Positions 13,915-60,193 of a DNA stretch of 60,367 nt are shown piece by piece. Positions within the stretch are counted from its first letter, which is position 1. Every line of letters starts with the position of its first letter. The DNA is taken from assembly GCA_003220475.1 (NCBI GenBank), contig QHSO01000026.1:1-60367 (forward strand), in the 5' to 3' direction. Origin of the DNA: Candidatus Rokuibacteriota bacterium. Lineage in GTDB: Bacteria > Methylomirabilota > Methylomirabilia > Rokubacteriales > CSP1-6. The translations under genes and the position numbers were made by a program. Under the pieces are notes generated by a model. It was given only the letters and a program-made list of their open reading frames with translations, made no database searches and had not been told where the DNA came from.

Positions 13915-14337
13915 TCAGTGCTTGGGCGTGTCGCTGATGTTCGTGCCCTCGACCGGGTAACCCTTCGCGTGCCAGCCGGGAAGCCCTTCCTCGAGCACGC
14001 GCTGATTGCGCCAGCCGAGCACGTGGAGGACATTGCTGGCCCCACGGGACAGCGCGTGGGGACACGTTCAGTAGAAGACGACGAGCCCGGTCTTGCGGAT
14101 CTCCGACGCGCGGCGCTCCACGCTACGCAGCGGCATCGAGCGCGCGCCGCGAATGTGCATCTCGACGTAGGCGTCCCAGTTGCGGACGTCGATGATGTCC
14201 GCCTTCTCGCCGCGATCGAGCGCCGCCTTCAGCTCGTCCACCTTGATGAAGTTGACGGGCGCATCGGGCGGCGCGGCCGGGGCCGCGCCGAGCAGCACGA
14301 TCGCGGTGGCGAGCGCCGGCACCATCGCTCGGCGCAC
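13915..14337 (-). CDS. exported rhodanese with selenocysteine at the catalytic loop (UGA at codon 90)
   Basis: Read with UGA as selenocysteine, this is a complete 140-aa rhodanese. A GTG at 14337 with GGAGG seven nt upstream starts a signal peptide (MRRAMVPALATAIVLLGAAP), followed by the CH2A motif IIDVRNWDAYVEMHIRGA. The active-site strand is GLVVFY-U-TCPHALSRGAS (UGA at 14070-14068), and then the normal rhodanese end VLHVLGWRNQRVLEEGLPGW follows, with a stop at 13915. Read conventionally, the protein would end just at the catalytic loop. The UGA replaces the first cysteine of the Y-C-x-C-P motif seen in relatives. A hairpin fitting a bacterial SECIS element begins 6 nt after the UGA. The gene sits between tldD-like and pmbA-like genes, 3 nt and 1 nt apart, so it is expressed with them. 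Sulfur transfer or thiol redox in the periplasm is inferred. Confidence 0.82.
14040..14061 (-). promoter_or_regulatory. putative bacterial SECIS hairpin of the rhodanese gene
   Basis: On the minus strand CCCCACG (14061-14055) pairs perfectly with CGTGGGG (14046-14040), leaving an 8-nt apical loop CGCTGTCC that contains GU. It begins 6 nt after the in-frame UGA, and the loop lies at about the distance seen in E. coli SelB-dependent SECIS elements. Confidence 0.6.
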
Positions 14338-14340
14338 GGC

Positions 14341-58317: not shown

Positions 58318-58659
58318 GTGACCGACTGCGTGTTCTGTCGCATCGTCGCCCGCCAGACCGCCGCCGACATCGAGTACGAGGACGATCACGTGCTGGCGTT
58401 CAAGGACATCTACCCGAAGGCCCCCGTGCACATCCTGATCGTGCCCAAGCGCCACATCGCCTCGATCGCGCAACTCAGCGATGGCGATGCCGACCTCATC
58501 GGCCGCTGCGTTCTCGCGGCGCGGCGGCTCGGGGAGACGAAGGGGTTCGCGGAGAAAGGGTACCGGATCAGCGTGAACACCGGACCCGAGGGCGGCCAGG
58601 TCGTGTACCACGTCCACTTCCACTTCACGGCCGGACGCCAGCGCGGCGCCGGTGCCTAG
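58318..58659 (+). CDS. HIT-family (HINT-like) nucleotide hydrolase
   Basis: A 113-aa histidine-triad protein of the HinT branch, hydrolysing purine-nucleoside phosphoramidates. It opens CVFCRIVARQTAADIEYEDD (C-x2-C), has HILIVPKRHIASI and the triad HVHFH near the C-terminus. GTG start with GGGAGG seven nt upstream. Its stop TAG shares CTAG with the stop of the convergent protease-rhodanese gene. Confidence 0.95.
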   Translation: MTDCVFCRIVARQTAADIEYEDDHVLAFKDIYPKAPVHILIVPKRHIASIAQLSDGDADLIGRCVLAARRLGETKGFAEKGYRISVNTGPEGGQVVYHVHFHFTAGRQRGAGA

Positions 58660-60113
58660 GCCTTCGCTTCCAGCGGGAGTCCTGCGTTGGCCCACGATCC
58701 GAGACCGCCCTTAAGGATGCGCACGTCTCGAAATCCGAGCTGTCGTAAGCGCAGCGCCACACGGGCGCTCGTCATCTCGTCGGGTCACGTGCAGTAGGCG
58801 ACGACGGTCCGTGACGGATCGGCGGGCACGGTCGCCGCGCCGTCCGCGAGCGAGTCGAGGGGCAGGTGCAGTGAACGCGGGATCCGCACGGGACTGCGCG
58901 CATAGGCATCGGAGGCGCGGACATCGAGGATGATCGGTGGGTCGGGCCCGTCGACGAGCCGCATGACCTCGGCGGGTGGGATGCGAAATCGGTTGCGCTG
59001 GCGGCGTCGCATGAGGAGCACCGCCCAGCCGGTCGCGCTCACAGCGAGCATTCCGATCGCGACCCAGGTCCACGGCAGCAGGGGCTCGCGCTTGAGACGC
59101 TCGTCGTTCTCCATCGTCACTCGCCGCACGTCCGGCAGCTCGGGTAGCAGTCGGTTCGCCTCTGCCAGCTCCGCCCGGGCACGGCGGTGGTTGCCGGCGA
59201 AGTAATCTCGGAGCCCCGCGTACCACGCCGCGTTGAATCGACTCGGCTCGTCACGCCGAACCGACGTGCCCTCGAGGAACTTCACGACCGCCGCCGCTGG
59301 AATGACGAAGTTGAAGCCCTGCACGATATCGGCTTGCGCGTCCGATGAGAGCGTGACGAACGTCAGCACGCCGACGACCTCGCCGGCGTCGTTCACGGCG
59401 GGTCCGCCGCTGTTGCCCCAGGCCGCGGCGGCGTCGGTCTGGATTACCGGCTGGTTGGCGCGATCCTGTTTGAAGCCCGAGATCGCGCCGCTCGTGATGG
59501 AGGCCTCCATCTTGGCCGACGAGTTCAAGAGCTCGTGGCTCAACACCACGCCGGGAAACCCGATGATGTGCATGCGATCGCCGATCCGCGTCTTTGCGGA
59601 ATCCGCGAGCGCCAGCGTCGGCATGTCGGCCGCCTCGAGCTTGAGCAACGCGAGATCCTGGCCGGACATCGCTTCACCGGCAACGGGCGGGCTGTACTTG
59701 ACGACGCTCGCAGGCAGCCGCACGCCGTTGGCGATCAGCACGGAGATCGACGGCTCGAGCCTGGCGCGGCCCGTGCCGCTGCGATCACCGCAGACCTGTT
59801 TGATCGCCTTCTGCGTTTGCTCCCGAACCAGCCATTCGGGTGGACGATATGCCGGCGAGACGACGTGGCCGTTGGTGATGAGCCAGCCCGAGGACGCGAT
59901 GAACCAGCCGGTGCCCGTTTCGCGGAAGGGCGCGGGCGTCACCGTCGTCTCTGCACCCGCGCCGCAGCGCACCGCGACGTCGCCCGCGACCTCCGAGATC
60001 ACCAGAGCCACGGCGGGTTTCGCGCGGAGCAACGCCTCCTGAAGCGATGGCGACTGAGCCGACGCGAGCGCGGGAGCGAGTACCAACAGCAGCGCACCAA
60101 CGACACTGCGCAC
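58656..60113 (-). CDS. trypsin-like protease with transmembrane helix and C-terminal rhodanese carrying selenocysteine (UGA at codon 443)
   Basis: Read through one UGA, this gives a 485-aa protein. Order: signal peptide (SVVGALLLVLAPALASA) after a GTG at 60113; S1C trypsin domain with ITNGHVVSP (His), SGQDLALLKLE (Asp) and AAWGNSGGPAVN (Ser), all intact; a membrane helix (PWTWVAIGMLAVSATGWAVLL); and a rhodanese domain (IILDVRASDAYARSPVRI). The active-site strand is RTVVAYCT-U-PDEMTSARVAL, the UGA (58787-58785) standing for the second cysteine of Y-C-x-C-P-[DH]-E. The frame then completes the domain (RQLGFRDVRILKGGLGSWAN) to a stop at 58656. A SECIS-like hairpin follows the UGA. Trypsin lies outside; the rhodanese follows the helix, so by the signal-peptide topology it would face the cytoplasm. 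Confidence 0.82.
58753..58769 (-). promoter_or_regulatory. putative bacterial SECIS hairpin of the protease-rhodanese gene
   Basis: AGCGCC (58769-58764) pairs with GGCGCT (58758-58753), loop CGTGT containing GU. The stem starts 15 nt after the UGA at 58787-58785. Confidence 0.55.
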
Positions 60114-60168: not shown

Positions 60169-60193
60169 CGCGACCTCAACGTTGGCGAGCGAG

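Follow-up and report, generated by a model that had tools for sequence, protein, structure and literature searches.

The window analysed here, the whole 60,367-nucleotide stretch of DNA from a Candidatus Rokuibacteriota bacterium, encodes on its minus strand a membrane-spanning protease-rhodanese which is quite probably a selenoprotein, with the incorporation of selenocysteine (Sec) at an in-frame UGA directed by a downstream hairpin and with Cys441 and Sec443 most likely acting as a redox pair. Rokubacteria, placed in Methylomirabilota by GTDB, are soil and groundwater bacteria. The frame (58656-60113, minus strand) begins with GTG at 60113, an alternative start being possible at the upstream TTG at 60179, and ends with TAG at 58658-58656; it comprises 485 amino acids if its single interruption, the UGA at 58787-58785 (residue 443), is read as Sec. 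Translation by the standard table 11 halts at this codon and yields a protease with a broken rhodanese. The preliminary description had proposed that an intact trypsin domain, a membrane helix and a rhodanese are fused in one protein, and that the rhodanese is complete only if the UGA is read as an amino acid. The first point was borne out by the Pfam domains, the catalytic triad and a hydrophobic stretch, the second by the read-through frame, and the positions given for the codon were correct. The protein of a separate genome (G043) matches residues 1-485 at 85% identity and its gene carries the same TGA, which speaks against a sequencing error in one genome.

The N-terminus (residues 1-22, 60048-60113) is hydrophobic and resembles a signal peptide, as assigned by inspection of Kyte-Doolittle windows above 1.5. 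The protease domain (residues 67-249, 59367-59915) is of the Trypsin_2 or HtrA type, scoring 94.7 bits with Pfam Trypsin_2, above the cut-off, and its triad of H83, D153 and S235 is invariant across 29 aligned rows. Two cysteines of the protease, C50 and C108, are also invariant in 29 rows and could form a disulfide. The structure alignments comprised 28 of the 32 named loci together with the window sequence (A1) and 25 of the 32 named loci (A3). The Pfam scan of the full protein contained no PDZ domain. Between the protease and the membrane helix, the structure model places helices at 292-305, 309-322 and 327-342, which form a helical hairpin (residues 292-342, 59088-59240) that appears TPR-like by eye; the sole profile match of this region is a sub-threshold one to HemY_N (17.6 bits, cut-off 31). 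The second hydrophobic stretch (residues 349-369) lies in a predicted transmembrane helix (348-374 in the model, 58992-59072) ending in RRRQRNR, and is followed by the rhodanese domain (PF00581, residues 380-476, 58686-58976; 45.1 bits, cut-off 22.2) with the motif Y-C441-T-U443-P-D-E-M-T-S-A-R.

The model of the whole protein has a mean pLDDT of 85.4. Since Foldseek with this model retrieved proteases, with DegQ, DegS and DegP as the best among the matches listed, the rhodanese was modelled apart. The resulting model (mean pLDDT 88.5) matches solved rhodaneses over its own whole length, including 3tp9_A (Z 15.1, rmsd 2.0, 101 residues aligned) and 3ilm_A (Z 14.0, rmsd 2.0, 102 aligned), and its solved structural neighbours include GlpE, mercaptopyruvate sulfurtransferase and YgaP. 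According to the positive-inside rule of membrane protein topology, the signal peptide-like start and the RRRQRNR sequence after the helix predict a periplasmic protease and a cytosolic rhodanese, in agreement with the two-sided layout suggested earlier, in which the protease lies outside and the rhodanese follows the helix.

Relatives were found at E values up to 1e-20 in 60 of the 95 genomes of the class, and the phylum-level search covered the same 95 genomes. The 32 loci in named genomes all belong to Candidatus Rokubacteria or Rokuibacteriota, the scan being one that finds close relatives only. Among the matches listed, 95 rows reach the rhodanese; matches covering only the protease or only the N-terminus were left out, as was that of genome G044, whose contig ends at residue 412. 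The rows fall into a short form (58 rows), ending 42-70 residues past the site except for one row that is truncated at 33 where its contig stops, and a long form (37 rows) with at least 143 further residues after the site. Among these listed matches, the short form has TGA at the position of residue 443 in 52 of 58 rows, with Cys in two (TGC and TGT), Ser in two, Glu in one and Ile in one, while the long form has no TGA in any of its 37 rows, Ser being encoded in 32 (AGC 28, AGT 3, TCC 1) and Thr in five. The gene behind one short row (L142) is spread over more than one frame in the assembly; L102 and L149 are incomplete. The pattern of a conserved in-frame UGA with Cys-aligned homologues, as expected of a selenoprotein, is therefore present, and the frame of both Cys versions (L098 and L147) is open straight through. 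No relative ending naturally at this codon, a case considered in the preliminary description, was seen, TAA or TAG occupying the site in 0 of the 95 rows among the matches listed. Each of the 52 TGA rows among the matches listed has Cys at the position of C441.

The codons past the UGA are, on these comparisons, under purifying selection. Mean pairwise pN/pS for codons +13 to +38 is 0.357 (72% amino acid identity) versus 0.572 (58%) for the protease, figures that serve as comparisons rather than rates because synonymous changes are near saturation. In codons +1 to +12, which contain the hairpin, pS is 0.320 versus 0.49-0.54 elsewhere.

The candidate SECIS hairpin (58754-58768, minus strand) consists of GCGCC (58768-58764), the loop CGTGT (58763-58759) and GGCGC (58758-58754). 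The pattern GCGCC-N5-GGCGC lies exactly 16 nt past the UGA (nt 20-34) in 52 of 52 TGA rows versus 2 of the 43 others among the matches listed. When the comparison is confined to the non-Sec rows whose amino acids permit the hairpin, 2 of 17 have it (Fisher p 2e-13, a value that ignores relatedness, among the matches listed). These two rows, L096 (Glu, GAA) and L147 (Cys, TGT), look like recent Sec losses which still carry the hairpin. In each of the 52 TGA rows the stem encodes its Ser, Ala and Ala with AGC, GCC and GCG, codons whose share for the respective residue is 29, 50 and 44% in the upstream part of these genes. The loop occurs as CGGGT, CGTGT, AGTGT, AGGAT or AGTAT, with G at position 2 in all five variants. 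A bacterial SECIS is by consensus a hairpin that follows the UGA closely and carries a G near the start of its apical loop; both the position and the loop G of the present hairpin fit this description. The sequence AGCGCCMGKRTGGCGC occurs twice in the whole genome, in the protease-rhodanese gene and in a second Sec rhodanese, and its reversed control has zero occurrences there. A single-sequence RNA fold of the 46 nt from the UGA was no better than shuffles (z -0.55); as the stem is invariant, it offers no compensatory changes, and the support for the hairpin is comparative. Glu encoded by GAA at the Sec site together with an intact hairpin was observed in L096 and L068 (Rokubacteria CSP1-6), reflecting either a recent replacement or an assembly error.

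The genome (4.8 Mb in 329 contigs) contains all of the components of the Sec machinery looked for in a selenoprotein producer. The genes for tRNA-Sec (selC, anticodon tca, 69.7 bits), selA (588.9 bits) and selB (369 bits) are located on one contig, and selD (335.5 bits; 8784-9734 of contig C102, L156) has an in-frame TGA of its own, so that SelD is probably itself a selenoprotein. Among the 46 draft genomes with the TGA form, selC was not found in 10, three of which have selB. The co-occurrence of selC with the TGA form does not discriminate, since selC is present in 36 of these 46 genomes versus 43 of the 49 others of the class. The conserved TGA, the hairpin, the purifying selection and the machinery together support the earlier proposal that the UGA is translated as Sec, and on this comparative evidence the codon at 58787-58785 almost certainly encodes Sec.

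In a tree of 92 of the 95 rows, from which shorter fragments were omitted, TGA rows are spread over several deep clades and extend to a second family of the class (f5). Those non-Sec short rows whose place is known stand singly or as one pair amid TGA clades; L150 groups with the long form, but its branch is very long and unsure. Most of the long form makes up one clade, with two long rows and one f5 row located elsewhere. Ser in the long form is encoded mostly by AGC or AGT, which are a single step away from Cys codons but more distant from TGA, and this suggests that the long form probably passed through Cys. The prevalence of Ser at the Sec site in these paralogues (32 of 37 among the matches listed) indicates that the fold does without Sec there. 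A long paralogue from the same genome (contig C67, L011:2783-4750, minus strand) has the order protease-helix-rhodanese-cNMP, with a cNMP-binding domain scoring 76.5 bits, and contains Y-D-T-T-P, so that both active residues are missing; Asp occupies the Cys site in 3 of 37 long paralogues, this one included, among the matches listed. The gene neighbourhood contained nothing pointing to function; in its clustering, many shadow frames ended up together in a single large group. In 18 of 33 sources there is a convergent HIT-family gene, and M16 peptidases and adenylosuccinate lyase were encoded near some of the loci.

In the proposed mechanism, SelB and tRNA-Sec would read the UGA as Sec under the direction of the hairpin. 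The product would be a periplasmic HtrA-type serine protease with a helical hairpin in the place of PDZ, one membrane helix and a cytosolic rhodanese fold, in which the catalytic Cys441 would be paired with Sec443 as C-x-U. In sequence alignments, C441 corresponds to the Cys of YC-R in 3tp9 and to the Cys of 6mxv, which is the catalytic Cys position of rhodaneses; C441 is thus the nucleophile by position, and U443 is an added residue two positions further on. The loop after C441, T-U-P-D-E, is acidic, and E446, T448 and S449 are invariant in 29 rows. Ordinary sulfurtransferase loops have basic or glycine residues after the catalytic Cys, so the replacement of the usual basic residues by D-E makes redox or persulfide chemistry of the C-x-U motif seem more probable than sulfurtransferase activity towards thiosulfate. 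The C-x-U arrangement is that of a thiol-selenol pair. Provided that the Sec assignment is right, a reaction in which C441 carries the persulfide or disulfide and U443 resolves it is the reading to which we lean with modest confidence. C441 would take up a persulfide or disulfide, U443 would resolve the C441 adduct via a selenenyl-sulfide, and a cytosolic thiol reductant would reopen the latter. The membrane tether would place this chemistry on the same molecule as the envelope protease. It is conceivable, if speculative, that the protein operates as a selenium-dependent transmembrane switch, in which the redox or persulfide state of C441-U443 is passed via the helix and the hairpin to the protease, or the reverse; a cytosolic sulfur or electrophile signal would then set envelope proteolysis. 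The link between envelope stress sensing and sulfur or persulfide chemistry put forward in the preliminary description is equally speculative.

A conventional sulfurtransferase using thiosulfate or 3-mercaptopyruvate as donor, with Sec443 merely tuning the reactivity of Cys441, is possible but not likely. The rhodanese fold and the catalytic Cys position are kept, and GlpE, mercaptopyruvate sulfurtransferase and YgaP are among the structural neighbours; however, P-D-E stands where basic or glycine residues are the general rule, and the separation of Sec from the catalytic Cys by one residue is that of a redox pair. Plain thiosulfate or mercaptopyruvate transfer has a low probability also when Sec itself is taken as given. 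It is doubtful, and rather improbable, that the rhodanese chiefly serves the protease as a structural or ligand-sensing module, its chemistry being secondary. The long paralogues with Ser at the Sec site or Asp at the Cys site, and the cNMP-binding domain of the same-genome paralogue, would agree with such a role, but the Cys of the short form is kept in all 52 TGA rows among the matches listed, and Sec, a costly residue, is retained over deep splits. If the UGA were a true stop, the gene would encode an anchored protease with a truncated rhodanese, and the downstream frame would be a remnant. Standard reading by table 11 gives this product, and neither selC nor selB was found in 7 of the 46 TGA-form draft genomes; nevertheless, with the frame past the UGA at 72% amino acid identity and pN/pS of 0.36, other stop codons absent from all 95 rows among the matches listed, the hairpin tied to TGA rows and Cys versions that read straight through, a true stop is extremely unlikely. 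Readthrough by another route, in which suppression would insert Trp or another residue without selenium, is hardly credible, as purifying selection downstream, which alone would fit any readthrough, is accompanied by complete Sec machinery and by a hairpin spaced as a SECIS would be, and two relatives have Cys at the site.

The predicted Sec-containing protease-rhodanese shares the protease fold and the H-D-S triad with the HtrA-type proteases DegS, DegQ, DegP and MucD, and DegS resembles it in having a single membrane anchor. Unlike these enzymes, it has no PDZ domain, its anchor lies after rather than before the protease, and a rhodanese lies across the membrane; the HtrA/Do-family model TIGR02037 scores 77.6 bits, below its cut-off of 416.2. 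YgaP of E. coli, a membrane-tethered rhodanese, is similar in fold (5hbl; Z 13.3, rmsd 2.3, 102 aligned) but to our knowledge contains neither a protease nor Sec. The best rhodanese-type NCBIfam match is NF041203, rhodanese_LYCAU (67.9 bits, E 6.5e-19), which has the rhodanese fold and C-x-U in common with the protein; however, the match does not reach the curated cut-off of 115, and the model comprises 126 positions, whereas here a periplasmic protease, a helical hairpin and a membrane helix are located in front. The accessible part of a review lists 119 prokaryotic selenoprotein families or subfamilies, including rhodanese form 3 (NF041203, CxU), and the protease-rhodanese fusion is absent from that list (PMC13188914, Table 1). 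TsoB (NF045694, rhodanese/DsbD fusion-like), another Sec rhodanese in a larger fusion, differs in having UxxxxU with two Sec according to the same accessible part (PMC13188914), and its model leaves the protein unmatched at E 0.01. The GOS survey, in its accessible part, predicted selenoproteins named “trypsin-like serine protease” and “secreted serine protease MucD” (PMC2398784), which likewise bear a serine protease name or domain; their Sec is located inside the trypsin domain (COG5640) or in a MucD-type CxxU, whereas here it belongs to the fused rhodanese. Fusions of DedA (VTT) and rhodanese are known, the link between the two domains having been called unclear (PMC10127716); these are also membrane proteins with a C-terminal rhodanese, but their membrane part is a DedA/VTT domain rather than a protease and a single helix.

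The literature searched contained nothing relevant linking Rokubacteria to selenocysteine or selenoproteins, and no HtrA-type protease-rhodanese fusion; Deng et al. (2026, Cell Rep) and Haft & Tolstoy (2025, mSystems), which lay outside the search, may list the gene. The accessible part of the review cites a genome from the Methylomirabilota for which 63 selenoprotein genes were predicted (PMC13188914), and the protease-rhodanese family may be among them. With this family, the known selenoproteins would gain a conserved protease-rhodanese that spans the membrane and contains Sec. Its active site exists naturally in versions with Sec, Cys, Ser, Thr, Glu and Asp, and single genomes pair several of these, so that the role of Sec in rhodaneses is directly testable.

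Other putative Sec rhodaneses are encoded by the same genome. At the start of contig C251 (L012:1-240) there is a rhodanese with Y-C-S-U-P and the same hairpin as the protease-rhodanese gene. Rhodaneses of this type gave 12 matches in 10 of 30 genomes, its own included, with TGA in all, and the hairpin is present in all six loci read. In one relative (L161) the partner is a DedA/VTT domain, and the DedA/VTT-rhodanese relatives L157-L162 have Y-C-S/T-U-P with the same hairpin; a DedA-rhodanese selenoprotein is absent from the accessible part of Table 1 of PMC13188914. The occurrence of the same Sec-rhodanese module and hairpin on DedA suggests that this lineage has a Sec redox module which is tethered to the membrane and can be reused. 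An exported rhodanese with Y-U-T-C-P is encoded in the window itself (13918-14340, minus strand; UGA at 14070-14068), and comparison with Y-C-T-U-P confirms the earlier remark that the UGAs of the two genes take partner positions of the motif. Its UGA is kept in 14 of 15 matches in 30 genomes, its own included, with a hairpin that differs by eye.
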